A DNA stretch of 27,562 bases from a virus: IMG/VR virus record IMGVR_UViG_3300034418_010908, positions 1-27,562 of that record. One strand, given 5' to 3'. Every line of letters begins with the position of its first letter. Positions within the stretch are counted from its first letter, which is position 1. The notes beneath the pieces are model-generated. The model made no database searches, had not been told where the DNA came from, and worked only from the letters and a program-made list of their open reading frames with translations. Shown piece after piece: positions 14,373 to 27,436 of this stretch. The translations under genes were made by a program, and so were the position numbers.

Positions 14373-14662
14373 GTTACTATATCAGGTTGAAATACTGGTT
14401 GTTTTGAGGATGGGGTTATAGAGGCTTGTTTACCTTGTGATTTTTCAAATTCTTCTTTTTGTTTTTCATTAAAATCATTGATTTTTCTTATATGAAATCT
14501 ACGAGTCATAATAGGCATTTCATAAACTTCACTCCATATAAAACCTCCACCACCATGATAAACTAAATCATGGATTTCAGACATATAAATTGCTTTATAT
14601 TCCGGAGTCAGGCCAAAAAAAGTTAGTACCGATTGGCATAGTGATGCCCTCCACAACATCAC
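14354..14662 (-). CDS. Tail assembly chaperone extension (gp51 / gpT-type), probably made by frameshift
   Basis: The frame is open from 14662 (GTG) to a TAG at 14354. The conserved part is GLTPEYKAIYMSEIHDLVYH, then WSEVYEMPIMTRRFHIRKIN, then a charged helix and a Ser/Pro/Lys tail. The VYEMP..xRRFxIRKI pattern matches small proteins downstream of gp26 in T4-like phages, which act as tail assembly chaperones with the tape measure. The first residues (MMLWRASLCQSVL) are just the other frame of the upstream gene, and no ribosome site precedes them. I therefore think this is expressed as a C-terminal extension of the 254-residue protein through a +1 or -2 shift on the T run at 14615-14621. An internal start at the ATG at 14584 is the alternative. 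It lies immediately before the tape measure gene. Confidence 0.65.
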   Translation of the reverse strand: MMLWRASLCQSVLTFFGLTPEYKAIYMSEIHDLVYHGGGGFIWSEVYEMPIMTRRFHIRKINDFNEKQKEEFEKSQGKQASITPSSKQPVFQPDIVTKASKR

Positions 14663-15359
14663 CTTTTGAATTAATGTAACTAATACGAGTATCTAAATCT
14701 GGGGTGATTTTGGCCGCATATTCACGTACTGCTCTTGCGTCTCGTACCATCATATTATCAACAAAGTCTCTAATAGTATTGTTATCTGAGTCACCATTAA
14801 CAGAGGTGATTAAGTGTTTTAAACGAGTTGTGATATCATAAGAACCATTTGGATTAGCTTTAGTCAATCCTTTAATTTCTTGCTCAATCTTTTTATCATC
14901 AGCATGAGTTAACAATTTAAAAGTAACTGTTACTTTTGATTGTGGTAAAGTAAAAGCAAATTCATTTTTACCTTTTACAAAAATTGACTCATCAATTGGT
15001 TTTGGATCAAAATCAGTTAAATCAATTACTGTTTTAACTTTTTGTCCATAATCATCTGTAAGTTCAACATCATAATCTTTACCATATCCTAAAATACGAG
15101 CTGCTACTAATAAAGCATTTTTATCACCTGTTAACAATTCATCATAATCAATTTTAGAAACAATCATTGATTGTAATAATCTATCAATTACAACACCTTG
15201 CCTAATAAAGTTCATGTTGGTTAAAATGTCTTCTTCTTTAGCAGACATGTACTTCATCTCAATAGTACCTGATGATAATGGAGATGATTCTGGATACGGA
15301 AAGCCTTTAGATGGCAATTCTACAACTTCGGTCGGAAACTTAAATTTATTCTCTGACAT
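14595..15359 (-). CDS. 26: gp26-like baseplate / tail assembly chaperone
   Basis: A 254-residue protein of the T4 gp26 base-plate family. It opens with VELPSKGFPYPESSPLSSG, then IEMKYMSAKEEDILTNMNFI, then VIDRLLQSM, DELLTGDKNALLVAARILGY. That is the LPSKG / EEDIL / LLTGDK / ARILGYG signature. It continues with a strand-rich middle and a helical tail (VREYAAKITPDLDTRISYIN). In siphophages and myoviruses the matching protein, made just before the tape measure, keeps it soluble and helps tube assembly, and often has a frameshifted longer form. The zero frame ends NFFWPDSGI right after a seven-T run, while the overlapping frame carries the conserved extension. An ATATTTAT box lies 16 bases upstream of its ATG. 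Confidence 0.82.
   Translation of the reverse strand: MSENKFKFPTEVVELPSKGFPYPESSPLSSGTIEMKYMSAKEEDILTNMNFIRQGVVIDRLLQSMIVSKIDYDELLTGDKNALLVAARILGYGKDYDVELTDDYGQKVKTVIDLTDFDPKPIDESIFVKGKNEFAFTLPQSKVTVTFKLLTHADDKKIEQEIKGLTKANPNGSYDITTRLKHLITSVNGDSDNNTIRDFVDNMMVRDARAVREYAAKITPDLDTRISYINSKGDVVEGITMPIGTNFFWPDSGI
14615..14621 (-). other. Candidate programmed frameshift site, seven T
   Basis: In the message the zero frame reads AAC TTT TTT TGG CCT. A +1 (or -2) slip on the T7 run leads from ...TNF(F) into GLTPEYK, the conserved chaperone extension. The zero-frame stop follows only six codons later. A true homopolymer length error in the assembly would look the same. Confidence 0.55.
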
Positions 15360-15387: not shown

Positions 15388-15415
15388 TTAAAAAACTAGC
15401 CTAACACTTTTTTAA
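15388..15415 (-). terminator. AT-rich stem-loop with T6 at the end of the heptosyltransferase-like gene
   Basis: In the minus-strand RNA TTAAAAAA (15415-15408) pairs with TTTTTTAA (15395-15388) around a 12-base loop that holds a small TAG/CTA stem and the stop codon. It could be a weak terminator; without GC pairs it is uncertain. Confidence 0.3.
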
Positions 15416-16430
15416 TCTCTTCTAAAACATGTTCTACAGGAGTTGGGTGTTCTGATTTTAAACTTAATACTTGTTCTGCTGGATGTTCTGGATGGGATAT
15501 TCTATGGCAACTAAATTCATGATAAGGAGGTGTAAAGTCAGAAATTAAAAATACTTCTGTATTACAAGCCCAAGCTAACCATGATAAACCTGTTGAAGAA
15601 CCAATATGATATTCTGAAGTAGCTGTTTCTAATGCTCTTTTATCTAAAGAAATATCACCGGTTTGGTCTGTTACATTTTTTAATTCAGTTGGTTCTTTTG
15701 ATATTACAACTACTTCATATCCTTTTTCAACAAACAAGTCTACAACTTTTTGCCAATCTTCTGTTGTACCCCAATCTTTATCTTTACCAGAAGTAAATTC
15801 ACTTAATGTGATTTTCTTTTGTTTTGGATAAGAAGGCATACCAATATTAGGTCTAATTTCTTTATATTCTAAACCTAAAATATCAGAAGCTACGCGCTGT
15901 AATGGTTTATCTAAATGGTTTGATGGAGCATATCGAGTGTTAATATCAGGTTGTGTTCCCACGTAATATTGCGCGTATATGTTCCATATTTTAGTGTTAG
16001 GCTTAACAAACATTATATCAGGATAAGCCATTATAAAAAATTCATTAAAGAAAGTAGAAACAATTAATTTACAATTATGTTTTTTTCTAAATTCTTCAAA
16101 ATATGGTATCCATGCTAAAGTATCGCCTATTCCCCAAGAGTCACACTTTATAAACACTGTCTCGTTTTCAGCGCTATATTCATCAAATTTAATAAGTTTT
16201 TTGTTTGAATCAGTTATAGTTATTCTCCATTTAGTAAACCATTGTCTATCACCTGTTAAAGGTTTATCAGGTAAAACTGTAAGTTGATTTACTAAAGAAT
16301 CTGATTCAATATCATAAAATGATACTGTATATTCTTGTGTTAATTCTTCCTCTGATTCAGGGAAAAAATAAATTAAAGGTCCTCCAATTGTAACTGGTAA
16401 TTCTGTTACATAACTAATTTTTATTTTCAT
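15396..16430 (-). CDS. Autotransporter O-heptosyltransferase-like glycosyltransferase (GT9-type fold)
   Basis: A 344-residue glycosyltransferase resembling the bacterial autotransporter heptosyltransferase family (TibC/AAH type), which puts sugars on Ser of beta-helical repeat proteins in the cytoplasm. The first Rossmann domain carries FIKCDSWGIGDTLAWIPYFE (residues 93-112) and IVSTFFNEFFIMAYPDIMFV (123-142), both hallmarks of the family. WNIYAQYYVG follows at 149-158. The second domain has the donor-site pattern GSSTGLSWLAWACN (277-290) and VFLISDFTPP (293-302). The family's cysteine-rich, iron-binding segment after that point is absent: the C-terminus goes straight to a short helix. The first 80 residues look like a beta-rich accessory domain. 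It is the last gene of the fibre operon, so the likely acceptor is a virion fibre; donor sugar is unknown. Confidence 0.78.
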   Translation of the reverse strand: MKIKISYVTELPVTIGGPLIYFFPESEEELTQEYTVSFYDIESDSLVNQLTVLPDKPLTGDRQWFTKWRITITDSNKKLIKFDEYSAENETVFIKCDSWGIGDTLAWIPYFEEFRKKHNCKLIVSTFFNEFFIMAYPDIMFVKPNTKIWNIYAQYYVGTQPDINTRYAPSNHLDKPLQRVASDILGLEYKEIRPNIGMPSYPKQKKITLSEFTSGKDKDWGTTEDWQKVVDLFVEKGYEVVVISKEPTELKNVTDQTGDISLDKRALETATSEYHIGSSTGLSWLAWACNTEVFLISDFTPPYHEFSCHRISHPEHPAEQVLSLKSEHPTPVEHVLEEIKKVLG

Positions 16431-16438
16431 AATTTATT

Positions 16439-16690
16439 TTAAGGTACAAATTGAACTTCTTTCCAAGCAGTACCGTTATAAAACCATAATGAACCTGTTG
16501 TAGATGATTGATAGTTTACCATTTGTCCACTAACAGATTCAGCTGGATTTGGTAATGAACCTGTTGGAGTTAATATAACTGATGCTGATGTCATCAAAAA
16601 TCCGTAAGTAAATACACTACCATAAACAGTTTGGGTTCCTGTATCTATGTCAAATGATGATCCGGCTGCTAAGTCGTTTGCTTCTGGCAT
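16439..16690 (-). CDS. Small fibre-associated protein
   Basis: An 83-residue protein between the long fibre and the glycosyltransferase. It ends SLWFYNGTAWKEVQFVP, a motif commonly seen at the ends of phage fibre domains (W/F-YNG-x-W). The middle is Ser/Thr/Gly-rich and probably beta-structured (TPTGSLPNPAESVSGQMVNY). It is too short to be a fibre alone. It may trimerise on the long fibre or be a detachable C-terminal tip. The start codon is 22 bases after the fibre stop, and the gap is AT-rich with no Shine-Dalgarno sequence. The function is inferred from position and the end motif. Confidence 0.65.
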   Translation of the reverse strand: MPEANDLAAGSSFDIDTGTQTVYGSVFTYGFLMTSASVILTPTGSLPNPAESVSGQMVNYQSSTTGSLWFYNGTAWKEVQFVP

Positions 16691-16712
16691 AATATTTTAT
16701 TTTTATTTATAA

Positions 16713-19700
16713 TTATTTATTAACCCATTCTAAACCACTTCCTGATGGTTGAACTGTATAAAGTCCTCCAGGAACAGTAAATAAAGGTATAGAAAATGTA
16801 AAACAGAAGTTTGTTCCTGGGAGGCAATATCTAATTGTTTGCGTTTTAGTAAAGCTTCCACTTTGATAAACTGTTAATCCTTCATATTTGTTTAAATTTA
16901 TTCTTTCAGAATAACTCATTACTGGATACATAAATCCACCTGGGGATGATGTTTTGGAGTGAACATGTAATGCTACAGAAGCACTTGGAGCAGCATTTAT
17001 ACCTATTTGATCTGTATAAGCTACAAACACGTTTGATCTATCAGCTTCACTAGCACCATCACCTATTAAGAAATGAGCACTTCCTAAAGTTTCATTATAA
17101 GCACCAACTACTGTTTGATATTGAGCTGATGCTGAGGTATGATTACCACCGGCGTGAGAATAAGCTCCTTGAGCTAAAGTATAATAACCTTCAGCATGTG
17201 ATGCAAATCCTATTGTTCTTGTTTCTCTACCTTCAGTATGTGAATAAGTACCACTAGCATAAGTGCGATATCCTTCAGCATGAGACCAAGGTCCTGCTAT
17301 TATATTTTCGCCACCTTCAGCGTGAGACCAACTAGCGTATAATAATATAGTATTAGCATTTCCTTCAACGTGAGATCCATATGCTAAAGTTGTATTAAAA
17401 CAACCTTCAGCATGAGCATGATAACCTAAAATGTATATATCATTCTGATCTCCTTCTACGTGAGCATCTATAGCATAAACAGTGTTATTAATACCTTCAG
17501 CATGAGAATAATCAGCTGATGACATAATGGTATTAATTCTTCCTTCAGCGTGAGCGTAGCTAGCACCTAAAATTTTATTTTGTGAACCTTTAGCGTTATT
17601 ATAACTTCCTGATATAGTGTTTTGATATCCTTCAATATGGTTATAAGCACCATAAGTTATTGTATTTTGGTAACCTTCTGCATGCCCATTACCTAATAAA
17701 GTATTACCTACACCTTCAGCATGGGAATAATCGGCAGATATTATATTTTGGAAACCTTCAGCATGAGAATAATAACCACCATTAGTAATACTATTACCAT
17801 ATCCTTCAGCGTGGGCATACATAGCATTACCTGTTACTGAATTACTATCACCATGAACAACTGAATAAGCTGCTGAGGCTGTTAATCTTGTACCATGTGT
17901 GAATGTTGGACCATCACTAAATGATCCTGTTATATTTCTTAAACCACTTTGGTCTGAAGGTAAACTAATATCTAAACTACATGAAGTATGATTATCTCTT
18001 GTTGTAACATCTTGCCAATTATCAACTTCTGTTACTGTAACTAATACACCATTAGATCCACTTATAGAAGCGCTAACAGCATTACCTACAAAATTCCAAT
18101 TATAAACTGGTGTATTAACTAAAGTTCCTTCATCGTAAACAGTATGTGGTGTAGCTTCATCTCCTTGAATACCTTGTATACCTTGTGCTCCAGTTATACC
18201 TTGTATACCTTGTGCTCCAGTTATACCTTGTATACCTTGAGGACCTTGAATACCTTGCGCACCTGTAGTTCCTTGAGTACCATCAGCACCTTGTATACCT
18301 TGTATTCCTTGGGCTCCAACAGTACCTTGGGCTCCAACAGTACCTTGAGCACCAGTAGCACCTTGAGGACCTTGAATACCTTGTATTCCTTGGGTTCCAA
18401 TAGTACCTTGTGGACCTTGAATACCTTGAATTCCTTGAGTACCTGCTCCTCCTCCTCCTGTTATTTCTATTATTACTCCATCACTACCACTTTGATTAAC
18501 TGATACTCCAGAACCTGTAAAATTAAATTTAGTAGTATTAGAGTTAACTAATGAACCTGTTTCATAAACAGTAACTGTAGATGATGCTGAAGAAGCATTT
18601 TGATAAAATAATTGACCATCTACAGCATTCCATCCTATAACATAAGTTTGGGTAGCTTGGGTCAGATCAGGCATATAAACACTTTGTGAGAAAGCGTTAA
18701 AGGTTTTATTAAATATAGCTAAATCACTTCTTGTACTTGAAGTACCATTACCTACAACAAATAAATCATCTGTTTGTGGACGATCTATATTATAATGACC
18801 AACTACATTAACATAATTTTCATTAGCTATTGTATGTAAACCAGCTGCATGTGAACCTATACCTGTTGTTACAGACCCGGATCCTTCAGCATGTGAATAA
18901 TTTCCAATAGTTGTTGTTCTATAACCTTCAGCGTGTGAAGCCTTAGAACCACTTATAATATTACTATAACCTTCAATGTGTGAACTATTTGAACCAGAAG
19001 TTATAATATTACCATATCCTTCAGTATGGTTGTTAATTGATTTATATAAAATAGTATTATAAGAACCTTCAATATGATTATGATCACCTCCTATTAATGT
19101 ATTTTTTAAACCTTCTACATGGTTATAATATTCAGGAGTTGTAGGTGATGATGTTCCGTCTAATATTGTATTAAATGCTCCTTCAATATGGTTAAAGTAA
19201 CTAGCTGTATAATTGTTTTTTATTGTATTTTTATAACCTTCTATATGAGAAGAAAACACTGCTCTGTCCCACCAAGTTCCTCCAAGTAATTTATTTTCTT
19301 GGCCTTCAACATGTGAATAAAATACATCTCCGTTTGTACTATTAAAATATCCTTCAACATGAGAATATCTAGTAGAACCATTTATATCATTATATCCTCC
19401 TTCAACATGAGTATATGCTGCATCACCGGAGAGAATATAATTACCAGCACCTTCAACATGAGACCAAGCGGATTTAATTAAGTTATAATAACCTTCTACA
19501 TGGGCCCAATATGCACTGTTACCATAGTTACTACTCGCTCCAGCATTATTGTATGTAAAGTTATTATTGCCTTCAGCGTGGGACCCATAAGCGGCGGGAA
19601 AATTGTAACAACCTTCAGCGTGAGCATGACTACCAATAATAGGATGATTTGGATAGTTTCTATCTCCTACATAGTTGTTATCACCTTCACCATGAGCATG

Positions 19701-20378
19701 TTGACTATAAACTCTTTGTAATAATCCTTCTGCGTGAGAATAATCACCTAATACTGTGTTTTTATATCCTTCAACATGAGAATAACTACCAGTAGAATAA
19801 CCAGTGCTTCCTCCCCATTTAGTAAATATTCCTCCAATAGTATTATATTGACCTTCAGCGTGAGAATAAGAACCTGTTAATATAGTATTATATTGACCTT
19901 CAACTCGTGATCCTGTACCTTTTAATATAGTATTATATTGACCTTCAGCAACACCAAAAGGTGCTAATGAAGTAATATAAACATGGTCACCGTTAGCTAA
20001 TGAATAATCTCCAGAAGCTGTAGCATAATAACCTCTAGCAAATGAAACTAAACCTGAAGCTGTAACATTATATTCTGGGTTGGTAGATGTACCTATGTTA
20101 ACACCTTGTCTTATAATATCTGAAAATTCAGCTGGGGTTGAAGCTATTAATGTATTTGATCCTGATACTTGTAAGGTTCCTAAAACAAAAACAGATCCAG
20201 TTATTGTTAATGATCCTGATGAGATTGTTTGATTATTTGAACCTGAAAGGAATACTGCACTATCAGCTAGATCTAATATACGTTGTCTAACATCCTCAGC
20301 AGTAATAGCTCTGTCTATATTATTTTCTATATATAGAGTAGCTTCATCTAATATTTGTTGTCTTGTTTTTTGGGTCAT
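16713..20378 (-). CDS. Long tail fibre / adhesin with beta-roll repeats and collagen-like rod
   Basis: A 1221-residue appendage protein. Residues 1-50 form a helical attachment segment (TRQQILDEATLYIENNIDRA and on). Residues 140-514 carry about 22 copies of an S-H-[AVI]-E-G-x-x-N repeat spaced roughly 14-24 residues apart, similar to YadA-type head repeats that fold as a trimeric left-handed beta-roll. Residues 645-740 are G-x-y triplets (GIQGIQGPQG and similar), a collagen-like rod. A second block of about 16 repeats spans 851-1080. A linker with a TVY[ED].G[ST]LVN pattern occurs on both sides of the rod, indicating internal duplication. The C-terminus contains PVMSYSERINLNKYEGLTVY, typical of phage fibre ends. 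There is no intramolecular chaperone. It likely contacts the host surface. The gene overlaps nothing and follows a 96-residue gene by nine bases. Confidence 0.88.
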   Translation of the reverse strand: MTQKTRQQILDEATLYIENNIDRAITAEDVRQRILDLADSAVFLSGSNNQTISSGSLTITGSVFVLGTLQVSGSNTLIASTPAEFSDIIRQGVNIGTSTNPEYNVTASGLVSFARGYYATASGDYSLANGDHVYITSLAPFGVAEGQYNTILKGTGSRVEGQYNTILTGSYSHAEGQYNTIGGIFTKWGGSTGYSTGSYSHVEGYKNTVLGDYSHAEGLLQRVYSQHAHGEGDNNYVGDRNYPNHPIIGSHAHAEGCYNFPAAYGSHAEGNNNFTYNNAGASSNYGNSAYWAHVEGYYNLIKSAWSHVEGAGNYILSGDAAYTHVEGGYNDINGSTRYSHVEGYFNSTNGDVFYSHVEGQENKLLGGTWWDRAVFSSHIEGYKNTIKNNYTASYFNHIEGAFNTILDGTSSPTTPEYYNHVEGLKNTLIGGDHNHIEGSYNTILYKSINNHTEGYGNIITSGSNSSHIEGYSNIISGSKASHAEGYRTTTIGNYSHAEGSGSVTTGIGSHAAGLHTIANENYVNVVGHYNIDRPQTDDLFVVGNGTSSTRSDLAIFNKTFNAFSQSVYMPDLTQATQTYVIGWNAVDGQLFYQNASSASSTVTVYETGSLVNSNTTKFNFTGSGVSVNQSGSDGVIIEITGGGGAGTQGIQGIQGPQGTIGTQGIQGIQGPQGATGAQGTVGAQGTVGAQGIQGIQGADGTQGTTGAQGIQGPQGIQGITGAQGIQGITGAQGIQGIQGDEATPHTVYDEGTLVNTPVYNWNFVGNAVSASISGSNGVLVTVTEVDNWQDVTTRDNHTSCSLDISLPSDQSGLRNITGSFSDGPTFTHGTRLTASAAYSVVHGDSNSVTGNAMYAHAEGYGNSITNGGYYSHAEGFQNIISADYSHAEGVGNTLLGNGHAEGYQNTITYGAYNHIEGYQNTISGSYNNAKGSQNKILGASYAHAEGRINTIMSSADYSHAEGINNTVYAIDAHVEGDQNDIYILGYHAHAEGCFNTTLAYGSHVEGNANTILLYASWSHAEGGENIIAGPWSHAEGYRTYASGTYSHTEGRETRTIGFASHAEGYYTLAQGAYSHAGGNHTSASAQYQTVVGAYNETLGSAHFLIGDGASEADRSNVFVAYTDQIGINAAPSASVALHVHSKTSSPGGFMYPVMSYSERINLNKYEGLTVYQSGSFTKTQTIRYCLPGTNFCFTFSIPLFTVPGGLYTVQPSGSGLEWVNK
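17137..17826 (-). repeat. Fibre beta-roll repeat block 2 (about 16 S-H-A-E-G units)
   Basis: Coding repeat near residues 851-1080 of the long fibre. The recurring codons read, on the plus strand, as ccttcagc-atg/gtg-agaa at about 45-60 base spacing. The last units (YRT..ASG, RET, YYT) are the most regular and resemble bacterial trimeric adhesin heads. Confidence 0.85.
18160..18450 (-). repeat. Collagen-like G-x-y repeat of the fibre
   Basis: About 32 G-x-y triplets dominated by GIQ, GPQ, GAQ and GTQ, coded by a 9- to 18-base near-repeat (plus strand accttgtat / accttgag). Predicted to form a trimeric collagen-like rod between the two beta-roll blocks. Confidence 0.9.
18836..19960 (-). repeat. 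Fibre beta-roll repeat block 1 (about 22 S-H-x-E-G units)
   Basis: Coding repeat near residues 140-514. Units alternate A, V, I or T before E-G, and the third position after G is usually Asn. Spacing is less regular than in block 2, with some units carrying long insertions (for example around GGSTGYSTGSYSH). Confidence 0.85.
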
Positions 20379-20387
20379 TTTAAACTA

Positions 20388-20678
20388 TTAAATTGGTGGC
20401 TCATTATCTGGGGTTAAATCAAATATTAATGTACTGTAACTGGCAGATATAACATTTATAGCAAATTCTCTAGTTATTTCAAATATTCTACCAGGTTCTA
20501 CAGTAGCATCAAATGGAGCTATTGTATTATCTATAGTTCTAGTACCAGGTCCATATTGGTAAAATGTTTGTAAAGCTAATAACTCACTACCAGAGTAATA
20601 AGGAATAGCCCATGTTTCTTTATACTCATCATAAATTGTTGAGTCTATTTGTATACTTTCAGACACTACTGTTGCCAT
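20388..20678 (-). CDS. Small protein opening the fibre operon, unknown
   Basis: A 96-residue protein with no family I recognise. It is acidic and aromatic: MATVVSESIQIDSTIYDEYK, then WAIPYYSGSELLALQTFYQY, then a strand-rich EPGRIFEITREFAINVISAS. It starts a new unit: a strong terminator lies just upstream and an ATATTTAT box sits four bases before its ATG. It ends nine bases before the long fibre. It may attach the fibre to the tail or help its assembly, but nothing in the sequence proves that. Confidence 0.75.
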   Translation of the reverse strand: MATVVSESIQIDSTIYDEYKETWAIPYYSGSELLALQTFYQYGPGTRTIDNTIAPFDATVEPGRIFEITREFAINVISASYSTLIFDLTPDNEPPI

Positions 20679-20744: not shown

Positions 20745-21230
20745 TTAGTAGTTTAATATGCAATAATCCATAGCAACACTTAAAGAAAGGCTAATATATT
20801 GATCTTGAGACCAATCATAATCACCAAAAGCCGCTGTTTTAACATAAGCACCTTTAATGATCCATTCACCTACTACATCACCAACAGGGCCTAAAATGTC
20901 AAAGCGTAAATCTTTTTTATAGAAATCGCTATAACCATCACGGCCAGTTACTGATTCGTGTGCTAAACGAGCCCATTCCATTACAGCTTGAGCTCCAGAA
21001 GGAGTAACAGGATCGTACAATTCGATGTTCATATCTTGCCATCTAACTTTACCTTTAACTTTACGGTAAACGTTGATATGGTCTAATACTACTTCACCAG
21101 CATCGAAAGAAGGAGCTGTCACTTTTTTAACTAAATATGATGGTACACCTTGGATGTACATAATAAATCTGTTTTGAACCTTTGGTTCAAAAGCAGTAAA
21201 CATGATTTCATTTGTATTTAATACTGGCAT
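20745..21230 (-). CDS. 19: Tail tube protein, gp19-like
   Basis: The 161-residue subunit of the inner tail tube. Sequence features of the T4 gp19 family: an N-terminal extension, NRFIMYIQGVPSYLVKKV, a TAPSFDAGEVVLDHINVYRK strand pair, VRWQDMNIELYDPVTPSGAQ, a helix with WARLAHESVTG, then DILGPVGDVVGEWIIKGAYV and a final repeat of strands (ISLSLSVAMDYCILNY). The length matches the family (163 in T4). It lies 28 bases after the sheath gene with its own ATATTTAT box, which would allow extra tube transcripts. A strong terminator follows it. Tube and sheath together confirm a contractile tail. Confidence 0.93.
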   Translation of the reverse strand: MPVLNTNEIMFTAFEPKVQNRFIMYIQGVPSYLVKKVTAPSFDAGEVVLDHINVYRKVKGKVRWQDMNIELYDPVTPSGAQAVMEWARLAHESVTGRDGYSDFYKKDLRFDILGPVGDVVGEWIIKGAYVKTAAFGDYDWSQDQYISLSLSVAMDYCILNY

Positions 21231-21258: not shown

Positions 21259-23043
21259 TTATTGAAAGCTTGCACCAGTTGGAGTAATATTGAAGCTCAA
21301 TAATACAAATTCAACTGTTTTGGTTGGTTGGATATAAATTTGACCTACTAACTGGTTTCTATCAATAACATCTGGTCCGTTATTTGACTCATCCATTACT
21401 ACTTTAAACGCATACAAACCTTGTTTTTGTTGTACTGATTCTAAGTATGGATTAACACTTGCTAAGAAGTTATTTCTAGTTACTGTTGTATTTTGTTCAA
21501 ATACTAATGTTTCACCAACATTACCTACAAATCTCTTTAAGTTAATTAACAATCTACGAACATTAACACGATCAAGAGCAGATGGTTTTTGTTGTAATGT
21601 TTTCTGACCATAAGCTACAACACCAACTCCTGGGAATGTAGCGATTGGGTTAACTTTAGAAGCATATAATGTATCACGATCTGTTGGAGATAATTTTCTT
21701 TCAGCTTGAATTACACCTCCTAAACCACCTCTAGTTAAACCAGCTGGGGCGAACCATTCAGCAGATACTCTATCACTAAAGGCATAAACACCTGGCATAA
21801 CAGTTGAAGCTGGAACCCATACTAATTTACCTGTTTCTTGAGATGATACTTGAACCCATGGCCAATAAGTACCAGCGTATGAAGAATCTCTTTCTAAAGC
21901 TTCAGCAGTTACTGTTCCTATAGATGCAGTGTAATTAACTAAATCCATAATATAGAAACAATCACCTCTACTTTGAGCCATATTAATAAAATCACCTACA
22001 GCGGTATAATCTAAATTATATATACCTGGAGTAGATAATAAACTAAAATCATATTCATCAGTATTAGCTAATATTGAACTAGCTGTGGCATAAACACTAT
22101 TTGTTAATCCTTGAGTATTTACACTATTAATTGAAGAAAACATAGAACTAGTCACTGAGTTTGACTGAGTGTCATCACCTGTAGAACCAGAAAATGATCC
22201 TTGGAATGATCCCGATCCAGGGGCTGGAAGATATGAGCCAGCTGTTAAAACTGAAGAAGTATATTGGGCTTTAGCGTTTCCGTTATTATCAAACCAATTT
22301 GGAGTTTTACGATTTACATTAGATACATAAACATATTTACTTCTGTTAGGATAATCACCGTTTGTTTTAATATACCATCCACTATCAGTATCATATGAAA
22401 TAGTTTTATATTGGTTACCTACAACAGCTTCAATATAATTTGGAGAATTTGGATCTAATGAACATCCAGTAAATGTTTCTAAAACATTTTTCTGTAAAGT
22501 AGTATCATTACCTTGTCTAATTATTAGTGTGAATGTACCTTGGGAATAGTTAACATTTTGAATTTCCCACCTAACATTGTCATTAGAACCAGATAATAAG
22601 GTATCATTAGAACCAGAATAAAATTCACCACTTCCACTAGTATTCATTATTTCACCATAATTAATGGTTTTTAATGTGAAACTAGCAGTAGCATCAGTTA
22701 CAGATGTTGATCCACTTACCCAAATAGTATCACCAGTTGTTGCTTGAGTATAGCTATCACTAACTACTCTATTAACAAGAATAGAAGTACCACCTTGGTT
22801 AAAGTAGTTATAAGCAGCAATTGATGTCAAATATTCATATGAATTTCCATCTGTTCCTGTGAAAGAACCTCCAAACTTATTTTTAAAGTCTGAATATGAA
22901 GTAACTACAGTTGGCATGTTTGGAGCTCCTTTTACAGTAGGACCTACCAAAGCTAAACCAACTGATACAGGACCAGTGGTAATAAACGACTGGTCATTTT
23001 CGGTTGTTAATACACCTGGTGAAATTAAAGTTTCTGTTGCCAT
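21259..23043 (-). CDS. 18: Tail sheath protein, gp18-like
   Basis: The 594-residue contractile sheath subunit. The N-terminus reads LISPGVLTTENDQSFITTGP, then LALVGPTVKGAPNMPTVVTS and FKNKFGG, the standard sheath opening that hooks neighbouring subunits. A variable Ser/Asn/Thr-rich surface domain spans about 90-330. The conserved core resumes with QSRGDCFYIMDLV, YAFSDRVSAEWFAPAGLTRG and INPIATFPG-like KVNPIATFPGVGVVAYGQKT. The C-terminal handshake domain reads VNVRRLLINLKRFVGNVGET, then NNFLASVNPYLESVQQKQGL and a final TKTVEFVLLSFNITPTGASF. Length is close to T4 gp18 (659). It is preceded by an ATATTTAT box and a 55-base gap. Confidence 0.95.
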   Translation of the reverse strand: MATETLISPGVLTTENDQSFITTGPVSVGLALVGPTVKGAPNMPTVVTSYSDFKNKFGGSFTGTDGNSYEYLTSIAAYNYFNQGGTSILVNRVVSDSYTQATTGDTIWVSGSTSVTDATASFTLKTINYGEIMNTSGSGEFYSGSNDTLLSGSNDNVRWEIQNVNYSQGTFTLIIRQGNDTTLQKNVLETFTGCSLDPNSPNYIEAVVGNQYKTISYDTDSGWYIKTNGDYPNRSKYVYVSNVNRKTPNWFDNNGNAKAQYTSSVLTAGSYLPAPGSGSFQGSFSGSTGDDTQSNSVTSSMFSSINSVNTQGLTNSVYATASSILANTDEYDFSLLSTPGIYNLDYTAVGDFINMAQSRGDCFYIMDLVNYTASIGTVTAEALERDSSYAGTYWPWVQVSSQETGKLVWVPASTVMPGVYAFSDRVSAEWFAPAGLTRGGLGGVIQAERKLSPTDRDTLYASKVNPIATFPGVGVVAYGQKTLQQKPSALDRVNVRRLLINLKRFVGNVGETLVFEQNTTVTRNNFLASVNPYLESVQQKQGLYAFKVVMDESNNGPDVIDRNQLVGQIYIQPTKTVEFVLLSFNITPTGASFQ

Positions 23044-23354: not shown

Positions 23355-24581
23355 TTATATAAAAATATATTTGTCTGCTCGTTTAGTTCCATCAAAAGGA
23401 TTAATCATTGTTTTTACTATTTCTGGATCTACTAGATCTGGATGTACCCACCAATCTTCAAATGTACTATTTGAATCAGGAGCGATATCACCTACTACTC
23501 GTTTATATCCTAAAGATTCTAAATATTTTCTTGAAGAATGTCTATAATCAATTGGATGATTTATATAATAATCATGTTCATAAGTGATCACTCTAAACTT
23601 GTATTTGTCAAAAGGAATTGATAATAAAACACTAAAAGTAACATCAGCTGGTTCACAGTCGATTTGTAAATAATCTATAACTGTATCAAAATTATTTTCA
23701 GCTAATAACTTATCATAATCAACTGTTGTAGCATCTTGTAAAATACATGTGTTAGAACGATGTTCTTTATGTTTATTTACTTCTTTTTCATCAATTTCTA
23801 ATGCTACCCCGGTCCAATTAAATTCTTTTTCTAATAAAGCTGTATTACTATTATGGAAAGGATCTGATGCTCCGATTTCAAGATATGTACCATTTTCTTT
23901 TCCATCCAACATACTTAATATAAATAAATCTTGATATGTTTGAGAGTAATTTTTCTCAATTTTTTCAGAATTTTTAAACTTATATCTTAATTTTGAATGT
24001 TCTTCTTTAGTATATGTTAATGTTGGATATTGAAGACCATGTATCATAGATAGATTATTATAACAAGCTTCTATAAATTCTCTACGCATTGGATATTCTT
24101 TTAACAAATGGTTAAATAATTCTCTTGATTCATCACAATATCCAATCCACCAACCTGCTACTGCTTTTTGGAATATTAAAGCATATTCACCTGGGAAATC
24201 TATATCAACTGATGTGGATTTTAGATTTTTTAGTTTATCTAAACCTTGAACAGCGGCTAAATATGATTCTTGCCATTCATTTTTTGTTTGATGGTCATAA
24301 CTTAAATGATAATAAGCTTCAGGACGTTCACGATCAAAAGTAATAGCATTTAAAATAGATCCTCTAACTGAATGAGGACGATGTCCTAATGTTTTTAAAC
24401 ATAAAGCTACTTTAACTAAAGCTTCATATGTTAAATCTTTATCAAAACCATACTCTGCTGCTCTTAAAAATAATGTTAAAGCGGCTGCTTTGTGACCTTC
24501 TTGATAATATTGTTCACCAAACCAAAAATTAGTTTCTGGGTTATATGGGTCATTTAAAAAATTTTTTAATATTTTATCCAT
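23355..24581 (-). CDS. TPR-like domain plus FkbM-family methyltransferase
   Basis: A 408-residue two-domain protein. The first 180 residues are helical pairs of TPR type (for example FWFGEQYYQEGHKAAALTLF and EAYYHLSYDHQTKNEWQESY), as found next to phage and bacterial glycan enzymes. The second domain starts near 212 with YSQTYQDLFILSMLDG. The SAM-binding motif YLEIGASDPFHNSNT is at 233-247. VALEIDE is at 259-265, and LQIDCEPADV at 305-314. It ends with HSSRKYLESLGYKRVVGDIA. This is the FkbM family, which methylates hydroxyl groups on sugars and polyketides. The ATG overlaps the stop of the GH130-like gene (ATGGATAA). A role in methylating a glycan on the virion or host surface is inferred. 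Confidence 0.82.
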   Translation of the reverse strand: MDKILKNFLNDPYNPETNFWFGEQYYQEGHKAAALTLFLRAAEYGFDKDLTYEALVKVALCLKTLGHRPHSVRGSILNAITFDRERPEAYYHLSYDHQTKNEWQESYLAAVQGLDKLKNLKSTSVDIDFPGEYALIFQKAVAGWWIGYCDESRELFNHLLKEYPMRREFIEACYNNLSMIHGLQYPTLTYTKEEHSKLRYKFKNSEKIEKNYSQTYQDLFILSMLDGKENGTYLEIGASDPFHNSNTALLEKEFNWTGVALEIDEKEVNKHKEHRSNTCILQDATTVDYDKLLAENNFDTVIDYLQIDCEPADVTFSVLLSIPFDKYKFRVITYEHDYYINHPIDYRHSSRKYLESLGYKRVVGDIAPDSNSTFEDWWVHPDLVDPEIVKTMINPFDGTKRADKYIFI

Positions 24582-25563
24582 TGAGTAATTCTTCTAAAAC
24601 ATTTTCTGGGATTCTAACTGCAAAAGCCGCATTATCATGGAATCCATAAGTTAAAACTAAATCATTATCTATAACAGCAGCACCACAAACAAATTCAATT
24701 CGTCCTGTCATAAATTTAAATACATCAGAATATTTAACAATATTCCAATTTTCATCATAAGCGATTATTCGGTGATTGTAAATACCATCTTTATTATTGT
24801 TTTCATTTTGCCAAAAATCTACTTCATGAACAACACATAAACGATAATTTTTCCATTTAACAACTGAAGAACCACCTCTTAAATCATGACCAGCATTTAT
24901 TTGTTTAAAAACACCATTAAATATAGTTTCACTAGTTCCATTAATAGGATCAACTTTAACAATTTCTGCTGGATTAGCCCATTTTACATAACAATAATCC
25001 ATATCATTAATAGGCATCCAATTCTTTTCACAATATGAATTAGGATCATTTGGTGGTTCAATTCTTACTCGAGAAATTTCATTAGCTGTATCATAGTCAT
25101 CTATTTCAGAAAGTTCCATTCTGCCTTCACCATTAGGTTTTGTATCTCTTCTAACACCGGTAATGTATAAAACACCATCCCAACGAACCACTCGAGCATC
25201 TTCTAGACCAATAAATTCCCAAACTGGGGTAATATCTAGTTCAGATGTGTTTACTTCTTTATAAGAAGCTACTTCTAAAGTTTTAGGATCTAAAACACAT
25301 AAAAAATTAGCAGTTCTAAGATTACAATCATCTTCAGGATGAATATAAGTTAAAGGACCCCAACGACTTTGGAATTTTTGATTATTTTCACAAAGATAAA
25401 GAGCGTATCCTACGTTCCTTATATTACATAATATAGTGCCATCATCATCAATAAAAATAGAAGGATTACATATACCTGTACCTTTACTATCAGACGAAGG
25501 AATCTTTAAGTGGGCTACAGAACCCCCTTTGTCTAAAACTAATTTAACTAAATTATCAATCAT
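24574..25563 (-). CDS. GH130-type beta-propeller glycosidase / mannoside phosphorylase homologue
   Basis: A 329-residue five-bladed propeller protein. Visible family signatures: NPSIFIDDDGTI (33-44), the catalytic-type GLEDARV (119-125, D122 at the place of the general acid in EDPR motifs), YCEKNWMP (177-184), DLRGGSSVV (227-235), EFVCGAAVI (290-298) and LTYGFHDNAAFAVRI (304-318). Characterised GH130 enzymes cleave beta-mannosides with phosphate, or hydrolyse them. Phage and giant-virus homologues sit beside sugar-modifying genes and have not been assigned reactions. It overlaps the TPR-FkbM gene by eight bases, so both are co-produced. Possible roles are remodelling a surface glycan or making a sugar phosphate for virion decoration. 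There is no signal peptide, so it acts in the cytoplasm or on the virion. Confidence 0.8.
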   Translation of the reverse strand: MIDNLVKLVLDKGGSVAHLKIPSSDSKGTGICNPSIFIDDDGTILCNIRNVGYALYLCENNQKFQSRWGPLTYIHPEDDCNLRTANFLCVLDPKTLEVASYKEVNTSELDITPVWEFIGLEDARVVRWDGVLYITGVRRDTKPNGEGRMELSEIDDYDTANEISRVRIEPPNDPNSYCEKNWMPINDMDYCYVKWANPAEIVKVDPINGTSETIFNGVFKQINAGHDLRGGSSVVKWKNYRLCVVHEVDFWQNENNNKDGIYNHRIIAYDENWNIVKYSDVFKFMTGRIEFVCGAAVIDNDLVLTYGFHDNAAFAVRIPENVLEELLNG

Positions 25564-26502: not shown

Positions 26503-26658
26503 TTATAGATTATTTAAATAAATTTGAGCTTCTTCTTTTGTATAAAAATAATCTACTACTTTATCATTTACACTTCCTTCAGTGATAAAATAAGGGCGAT
26601 CTGGTATTAAAGAGCCTGATATTTCAACTTGAGGTATATTATATATATTATAATCCAT
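26503..26658 (-). CDS. 51-residue protein, unknown
   Basis: A short open frame starting MDYNIYNIPQVEISGSLIPD and ending KEEAQIYLNNL with tandem TAA stops. Its ATG at 26658 overlaps the last codons of the LamG-like gene by 11 bases, and it fills the whole gap to the adhesin-like gene, so it is probably real and translationally coupled. The second half (DYFYTKEEAQIYLNN) looks like one helix preceded by a strand. The function is unknown; it may be a chaperone or accessory for the adjacent surface proteins. Confidence 0.6.
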   Translation of the reverse strand: MDYNIYNIPQVEISGSLIPDRPYFITEGSVNDKVVDYFYTKEEAQIYLNNL

Positions 26659-27436
26659 ATCTTGTTTTATAAGCATTATATGTTTGGGTTATTTCGTCTG
26701 GTGATAATGCTTTATTGTAGAAAAGTACATTTCCTAACTCACCAGGAACATACCCATTTCCATTTGGATTTGCTATGGAATTGGTTCCTCCATATACTCT
26801 AAACCCTCCACTTGCATAACTACTGTATACCATTGATTCACCTGGGGAGGTTGGATTACTTCCACCACCATCAGAAGTCATAGGACCGTTATTAATTTGA
26901 GATGAATTTTTATAACTAGCAGCTTGACCACTTGTTTTATCATAAGTGTAAGATACCATAAACCATCCATTAGTATCAGCTCCTACTGGGGCAAAATTAC
27001 CATTTAAAAAACGTTTATATCCAGATGTAGTTGTTGTTGAAAAATTAATTATATAACTTTGTTCCATTACCATTGTTAAAGGATTTCCATTTGTTCCACT
27101 ATTACTTGTACAAAGTAACCCTCTCCAATTATTATTGCCTCCTACATTTAAAGGTATGTTTTCCATATTAATCCAAATAATAGCAGTAATTGATCCTGTT
27201 TCTAAGTCACTATTGCGACTAATTATAGTATGACTTGTACCAGAACCATCATTAATTACATTACTTTGTAAAGTTTTAATTCCTGCTCCTGATCCTATGT
27301 TAAAGTTATATACTCCCCAACTACTTCCAATAGGTTTATTAGGAATAGTTTCAGAACTAGTACCATTAAAATAATTAGGTTCTAATAAATGGATTAATCC
27401 ATCAGTGACTATTCTAGGTTTATGAAAAAAGGCCAT
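26648..27436 (-). CDS. LamG / concanavalin-type lectin-like virion protein
   Basis: A 262-residue protein with a jelly-roll lectin pattern. The N-terminus reads RIVTDGLIHLLEPNYFNGTS, typical for LamG-like proteins of phages ('GLIxxLDPxNxxS'). Strands such as GSITAIIWINMENIPL and GWFMVSYTYDKTSGQAASYK follow. The classic end is GELGNVLFYNKALSPDEITQTYNAYKTRYG, where A-L-S-x-x-E-I-x-x-x-Y-N closes the LamG domain. There is no signal peptide. LamG domains bind glycans or proteins, so this is a likely receptor-binding or head/tail decoration protein. It lies between a 2OG oxygenase and the adhesin-like gene, and has an ATATTTAT box 17 bases upstream. Confidence 0.82.
   Translation of the reverse strand: MAFFHKPRIVTDGLIHLLEPNYFNGTSSETIPNKPIGSSWGVYNFNIGSGAGIKTLQSNVINDGSGTSHTIISRNSDLETGSITAIIWINMENIPLNVGGNNNWRGLLCTSNSGTNGNPLTMVMEQSYIINFSTTTTSGYKRFLNGNFAPVGADTNGWFMVSYTYDKTSGQAASYKNSSQINNGPMTSDGGGSNPTSPGESMVYSSYASGGFRVYGGTNSIANPNGNGYVPGELGNVLFYNKALSPDEITQTYNAYKTRYGL

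Follow-up and report, generated by a model that had tools for sequence, protein, structure and literature searches.

The virus record IMGVR_UViG_3300034418_010908 (positions 1 to 27,562; hereafter the window, i.e., the whole 27.6-kb stretch that was analysed) encodes a 1221-residue tail fibre with β-roll repeats of the Ser-His-x-Glu-Gly (SHxEG) type and, two genes downstream on the same strand, a 344-residue glycosyltransferase that resembles the autotransporter O-heptosyltransferases TibC and AAH and lacks the iron finger of TibC. The best current reading of these sequences and of the structural models built from them, to which we assign a probability of about one half, is that the enzyme represents a largely phage-borne, fingerless offshoot of the TibC/AAH O-heptosyltransferases that would glycosylate the fibre of its own phage. 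Self-glycosylation explains the data best because the donor pocket of the enzyme is intact, its gene is under purifying selection, the neighbouring fibre resembles an adhesin head and SHxEG fibres are enriched across the enzyme class. In a literature search, no paper was recognised that deals with a phage TibC/AAH-type enzyme or with SHxEG phage fibres, and a text search with SHAEG returned unrelated papers only.

A predicted TibC-like fold and donor site

The enzyme (15396-16430, minus strand) matched NCBIfam TIGR04414 (hepto_Aah_TibC, the autotransporter strand-loop-strand O-heptosyltransferases) at 163.9 bits (E 5.2e-48) and Pfam PF01075 (Glyco_transf_9) at 17.2 bits, under the gathering score of 22; when solved structures were searched by sequence, the only weighty match was TibC (E 7e-21). 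The AlphaFold model (predicted local distance difference test (pLDDT) 85, predicted template modelling score (pTM) 0.83) aligned with TibC over residues 1-343 (4RAP and 4RB4: Z 30.9 and 30.5, 324 residues, root-mean-square deviation (rmsd) 2.6), and Foldseek retrieved TibC at E 2e-22. By contrast, WaaC, heptosyltransferase II and a GT9 enzyme aligned only from residue 82 or 89 to residue 343, with Z 17.3-18.4: the GT-B core is common to these enzymes, but the β-barrel part is unmatched and the structural match is much weaker. The predicted fold is that of TibC, an N-terminal β-barrel joined to a GT-B catalytic domain.

According to the TibC study (PMC4358343), Asp-110 is the candidate catalytic base, and Lys-230, Arg-286, Trp-305 and Thr-226 bind the donor. 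The first four have equivalents in the window enzyme (D103, K218, R265 and W284, respectively), and the two signatures by which the initial annotation had recognised the family, GIGDTLAWIPYFE and GSSTGLSWLAWA, do contain the equivalents of Asp-110 and Trp-305. The Thr-226 position is taken by a Ser (S214), likewise found in 37 of 65 rows of the finger-bearing class described below, and the stereo-determining Pro-300 position by another Ser (S279), as in AAH. Across 32 aligned fingerless sequences, the equivalents of D110, K230 and W305 are kept in every row and that of R286 in 31; K95, D298 and H304, each present in 32/32, are specific to this class and are mostly other letters in the finger class. 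Judged by its ratio of nonsynonymous to synonymous substitution rates (dN/dS 0.13-0.28, six comparisons), the gene is maintained by purifying selection. The likeness to the TibC/AAH family (BAHT, TIGR04414) comprises the β-barrel and GT-B fold, the Asp, Lys, Arg and Trp of the ADP-heptose site, the Ser shared with AAH and a gene placed beside an adhesin-like repeat protein; the differences are the missing iron finger and thumb tip, a score below the curated one, the residues K95, D298 and H304, and the proposed acceptor, a phage fibre. The assignment to the TibC/AAH type made in the initial annotation thus stands for the fold and the donor site, and fails for the iron finger that TibC needs.

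This finger is described in the TibC study as four Cys (339, 342, 358 and 370), each required for dodecamer formation and for activity on TibA. Homologues were collected by two IMG/VR alignment scans for the enzyme (the best 80 loci of each), to which six contigs of metagenome-assembled genomes (MAGs) and three annotated phage records were added. Clustering at 90% identity gave 103 clusters. The tree, for which the finger region was trimmed away, includes 102 of these; a 971-residue cluster of L303, sharing its name with the other L303 cluster, was left out. Thirty-three clusters were fingerless (339-366 residues, unfused), 65 were finger-bearing and often fused (28 of the 65 lie in open reading frames (ORFs) of more than 520 residues), and four were unclear and placed in neither class (L305, L210, L304 and L195). 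Thirty-two of the 33 fingerless rows formed a single clade (Shimodaira-Hasegawa-like approximate likelihood ratio test (SH-aLRT) support 99), with the MAG contig L303 joining outside it (91); one member of the clade, L301, is a MAG contig and all others are virus records. The tail following the ISD motif, measurable in 28 of the 32 fingerless sequences, had 33-44 residues with no or one Cys in 27 of them, and 73 residues without Cys in the last.

All relatives found in the phage collection were of the finger class (four records, three distinct). The homologues of Microcystis phage Mel-JY01, LR756501 and LR756504 keep the CxxC...WC...C pattern, and the UniProt entry A0A6J5SVC1, titled 'Glycosyltransferase Aah/TibC [uncultured Caudovirales phage]', is provisionally grouped with them. 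These proteins share with the window enzyme the domain, the tailed-phage origin and, for some, the proximity of collagen-like fibres, but they have kept the finger, are often fused and are accompanied by SHxEG in 1/65 clusters only. In Mel-JY01 (L008, 4747-8430), the finger-bearing TibC-like domain forms the C-terminal part of a 1227-residue 'methyltransferase FkbM', and a collagen-like coding sequence is nearby. In L004, a relative of the window, the region upstream of the sheath gene (1-327) encodes the C-terminal end of another glycosyltransferase, one that has the finger; that one phage can carry both classes suggests that they have different acceptors.

The fibre and its association with fingerless enzymes

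The fibre gene (16713-20378, minus strand) has the exact coordinates first given for it. The protein comprises an N-terminal region, a first roll block (residues ~172-499), a collagen-like stretch (646-741), a second roll block (~855-1064) and a C-terminal region. The figure of about 38 SHxEG repeats in the initial annotation was approached with a looser pattern (39), and not with strict S-H-x-E-G (19) or x-H-x-E-G (33); in 1000 shuffled versions of the protein, x-H-x-E-G motifs averaged 0.35 and never exceeded 3, compared with the 33 real ones. The modal repeat unit has 14 residues. The fibre had also been described as rich in Ser and Thr, and this proved to be a modest enrichment (19.4%, versus 15.0% for the remaining window proteins that are encoded on the minus strand and exceed 150 residues). 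Residues 840-1126 were modelled as a β-solenoid (pLDDT 81), and the top structural match of this model was BpaC (7O23), whose head is YadA-like (Z 20.6 and rmsd 8.7 over 270 residues), the next match having Z 11.8. Foldseek returned nothing under E 0.001 with the same model, BpaC coming first only in the second structural alignment, and the roll sequence had no match in the Protein Data Bank (PDB) at E<=0.01. We hold with moderate confidence that the modelled roll is of the YadA type; to this extent the parallel with autotransporters drawn in the initial annotation has support, the modelled part of the fibre looking like the head of such an adhesin. Among phage records, the closest match to the roll was found in Flavobacterium phage immuto (40% identity).

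A survey of related genomes for joint occurrence of enzyme and SHxEG fibre, proposed in the initial annotation, was strongly positive for the fingerless class. By a label that combined a motif scan with whole-record roll searches, 19 of the 33 fingerless clusters had SHxEG on their contig, as did one of 65 finger-bearing clusters (Fisher 1.6e-10, a value that assumes an independence the clusters do not have). The lone finger-class case, L011, belongs to a phage closely related to that of the window (tube 92% identical), and its contig ends inside the fibre. When whole records were searched with the roll, 20 of 35 fingerless records, one of 50 finger-class records and none of 50 tail-gene controls (tube/baseplate relatives) were positive, and the 20 positives indicate that the query works. 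The finger set consisted of 50 of the 63 virus and phage cluster representatives; the motif scan gave no SHxEG in the 13 short contigs left out of it or in the MAG contigs L302 and L306. The controls were chosen among the larger loci retrieved with the tube gene (the best 80 of that scan) or the baseplate gene, and one of them, G064, also carries a finger-class enzyme and is counted in both sets. Contig fragments can hide missing genes in such counts; among records of at least 100 kb, SHxEG was found in 7/10 fingerless, 0/11 finger-class and 0/5 control records. The association also extends to distance: the nearest SHxEG fibre lies within 600 bp in 9/33 fingerless versus 0/65 finger clusters, and within 2.5 kb in 14/33 versus 0/65. 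On the tree the SHxEG label needs 8 changes, and 11 of the 12 members of the window's clade have SHxEG on their contig.

Collagen-like ORFs are distributed differently, being present within 5 kb of 28/65 finger clusters and of 3/33 fingerless clusters, all three in the window clade. A collagen-like fibre was considered as the partner of the finger class and rejected as unspecific: among tube contigs with at least 8 kb upstream, to which this comparison was restricted, a collagen-like ORF lies upstream in 21/34 with such a glycosyltransferase and in 11/30 without.

The insert and its neighbouring genes

The tail genes of the window form a T4-like block, encoded on the minus strand, and fibre and enzyme are part of an insert between two of them. 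One border is the gene 20745-21230, which we take to be the tail tube gene from its place and size in the block; the other is a T4-type baseplate gene (14595-15359; Pfam PF12322, phrog_150 baseplate hub). Where a locus has both tube and baseplate genes, these border genes mostly lie at most 200 bp apart (115 of 139 loci). Another 18 have other gaps (0.3-1.8 kb, and one of 9 kb) in which this fibre and enzyme were not found, and six (the window, L002, L091, L004, L006 and L093) have an insert of about 5.4 kb (5-6-kb gap class). These six loci represent three distinct phages (window/L002/L091, L004 and L006/L093), and fibre and enzyme lie inside the insert in all six. The insert starts with a gene for a 96-residue protein (20388-20678, minus strand); this gene and the gene for an 83-residue protein, or a homologue, were seen in the inserts of the window, L004 and L006. 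In two members of the window clade cut by contig ends, L003 retains the fibre end and the enzyme, and L005 the enzyme alone. Joint transfer of fibre and enzyme was considered and set aside, the nucleotide identities between L004 and L006 being mosaic and not decisive: 0.99 for the enzyme, 1.00 for the gap with the 83-residue gene, 0.90 for the 96-residue gene, 0.94-0.96 along the greater part of the fibre and 0.84 in its middle, 0.92 for the baseplate gene, 0.79 for the sheath gene and 0.96 for the tube gene.

The 83-residue protein (16439-16690, minus strand) is encoded between fibre and enzyme, an order that agrees with the initial annotation. Because only 22 bp separate the fibre gene from it and 8 bp separate it from the enzyme gene, on one strand, it is plausible that the three form a single transcription unit. 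The protein had no family match in Pfam, NCBIfam and PHROG searches. A similar protein occupies the equivalent position in L004 and L006; the corresponding gap in L171 holds a small ORF that by its appearance is unlike it, and the 9 bp between fibre and enzyme in L170 are too short for such a gene. Further upstream lie the sheath gene (21259-23043, minus strand; labelled from its place and size in the block) and, upstream of it, a gene for a LamG concanavalin-like protein (26648-27436; PF13385, 28.1 bits for a cut-off of 27.6), which is perhaps another receptor-binding part. A Shine-Dalgarno-like core was present within 22 bases 5' of the start of 1/25 window genes; since such cores are rare and the best phage match of the roll is Flavobacterium phage immuto, our guess from the sequence is a host among the Bacteroidota.

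An FkbM methyltransferase gene and a GH130-type gene upstream had been proposed to supply or finish the sugar. The FkbM domain was confirmed (23355-24581; PF05050, 24.0 bits for a cut-off of 22.7), whereas the GH130 label was not: searches of Pfam, NCBIfam and PHROG with 24574-25563 gave nothing at E<=0.1, and nothing in the PDB matched it by sequence with an E-value below 0.43. The same pair, a tetratricopeptide repeat (TPR)-FkbM gene and a 329-residue gene without family match (23355-25563), also occurs in L059, L064 and L085. As neither a TibC-like enzyme nor an SHxEG fibre was found in these three loci, the pair provides no evidence for sugar supply; in L004, moreover, the region upstream of the sheath gene has the end of the other glycosyltransferase instead. 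Genes for hldE domain II and gmhA were found in 0/27 fingerless records; overall, the former was found in 3/44 records (all finger class, below the cut-off) and the latter in 2/44 (both finger class, one above the cut-off). If the sugar is heptose, its donor would then come from the host or from genome parts outside these records. The gmhA-like gene above the cut-off, encoding a sedoheptulose-7-phosphate isomerase, lies at 430182-430640 of LR756504.1 (L010, a 636-kb phage genome), and the second at 77932-78390 of G048 (the record of L218); phage-made heptose is possible, on this sequence evidence, in these two finger-class phages.

Proposed self-glycosylation weighed against its alternatives

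If the fibre is the acceptor, the host would provide ADP-heptose, or an ADP-sugar close to it, and the enzyme would transfer the sugar to exposed residues of the roll that recur at regular intervals (Ser, Thr or Asn) before virion assembly. The ring-building finger may have been lost because the acceptor, unlike a secreted β-helix, would be a trimeric fibre that is produced in the cytoplasm. The sugar would change how the fibre binds its receptor, or how stable or soluble it is. The proposal of the initial annotation that the enzyme modifies its own fibre is supported in part, by the fold, the donor site and the survey, and is not helped by the missing finger or by the FkbM/GH130 genes.

Several observations weigh against self-glycosylation. 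With regard to the enzyme, (i) its 163.9 bits are under the curated equivalog cut-off of TIGR04414 (200 bits), and it is, by sequence and model, a TibC-like variant and not a filed member of that family; (ii) the four-Cys iron finger is absent from it, and in the TibC study none of the four finger-Cys mutants is reported to have heptosylated TibA; and (iii) nine TibC residues surrounding the thumb tip (Phe-265/Val-266) have no counterpart in its alignment. A short thumb is not special to the fingerless class, since the finger-bearing L009 and L010 also appear short there. Both modules that the TibC study names for ring assembly are missing; because finger and thumb tip are lacking, the TibC ring, its mechanism and its grip on the β-helix cannot be assumed for the window enzyme. 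With regard to the counts, the loss of the finger is one change on the tree, i.e., one evolutionary event, and the tree yields a single independent contrast between fingerless and finger classes, so that the cluster counts are non-independent; the 35 fingerless records, in addition, include near-duplicates. Shared host range could yield part of the association, and the tube/baseplate control addresses this only for the window's own lineage.

Enzyme and fibre also occur apart. SHxEG is not on the contig in 14 of the 33 fingerless clusters, some of which are fragments. Homologous enzymes without a repeat fibre nearby, named in the initial annotation as the refuting case, characterise the finger class (no SHxEG found on the contig in 64/65, though 28/65 have a collagen-like ORF within 5 kb) and part of the fingerless class. 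G023 (149 kb) is an exception: it matched the window's baseplate protein and encodes two repeat proteins of other kinds, but no SHxEG was found in it. In G005 and G010, fingerless and without SHxEG, nothing matched the sheath, tube or baseplate proteins of the window, and the tail block may be missing from both. L174 (9989-11014), L259 (9989-11026), L265 (9989-11026) and similar loci form a lineage in which the fingerless enzyme is encoded within a conserved non-structural operon. This operon has genes for proteins of ~107 (thioredoxin-like with WAPWCG in L174 and L265), ~112 and ~106 residues upstream, and of ~113 and ~470-485 residues downstream. In the reverse direction, 22 records with SHxEG fibres were searched for the enzyme: two records of the window clade and G001 had it, compared with 0/19 of the others, and the enzyme was not found in the complete genome of Flavobacterium phage immuto. 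An SHxEG fibre can thus do without the enzyme. No repeat position cleanly separates phages with the enzyme (15 loci) from those without (18 loci). Residue bias within the repeat was not used as evidence: Ser/Thr reached 55% versus 36% at position 8, the bias was reversed at position 10 (34% versus 57%), and fourteen positions were compared.

The enzyme could instead modify host lipopolysaccharide (LPS) or capsule, thereby blocking superinfection or masking the receptor, and would adjoin the fibre as both act in host recognition. Phage glycosyltransferases near tail fibres have been read in this way, for example in a study of pelagimyophages (PMC7029224), and both the remote GT9/heptosyltransferase kinship of the enzyme and the lineage that encodes it away from structural genes fit this alternative. 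However, the model includes the TibC β-barrel, outside the part that aligns to LPS enzymes (1-343 versus 82/89-343), and the association is specific to the SHxEG fibre, the finger-bearing relatives having SHxEG in 1/65 clusters despite a collagen-like ORF near 28/65. We regard action on host glycans as unlikely, although it survives better than the other alternatives. Less likely again is glycosylation of another virion part, be it the collagen-like stretch, the 83-residue neighbour or the tail proteins. Capsid and tail tube are glycosylated in mycobacteriophages (Freeman et al. 2023 as cited in PMC12619734), a precedent for a phage that adds sugar to its own particle, with other targets than the one proposed here. 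The 83-residue gene does sit between fibre and enzyme, the fibres of the window clade do contain a collagen-like stretch, and collagen-like ORFs accompany many finger clusters. On the other side, only the three window-clade clusters among the 33 fingerless ones have such an ORF within 5 kb, collagen-like ORFs are common on tube contigs without such a glycosyltransferase, and L170 has no room for the 83-residue gene. Finally, it is very improbable that the protein has no catalytic role and only binds the fibre or helps to assemble it, like BimC, a bacterial TibC-family homologue paired with the autotransporter BimA and reported to bind it while lacking the predicted transferase activity (PMC6439308). 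In the 32 fingerless rows the catalytic Asp and the donor contacts vary little or not at all, and a pseudoenzyme would have no need of them.

Self-glycosylation of the fibre remains our preferred reading. We further suggest, tentatively and at slightly less than even odds, that phages evolved their own branch of adhesin heptosyltransferases, dropped the finger and sugar-coat adhesin-head-like fibres, i.e., that enzyme and fibre constitute a viral adhesin-plus-glycosylase pair. If the enzyme does glycosylate the fibre, this would add to virion self-glycosylation a form that targets the receptor-binding fibre, and a TibC-type enzyme would be able to function without the iron finger that TibC itself needs. 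A fingerless enzyme beside SHxEG rolls would also provide a search handle for more candidate glycosylated fibres in uncultured phages.

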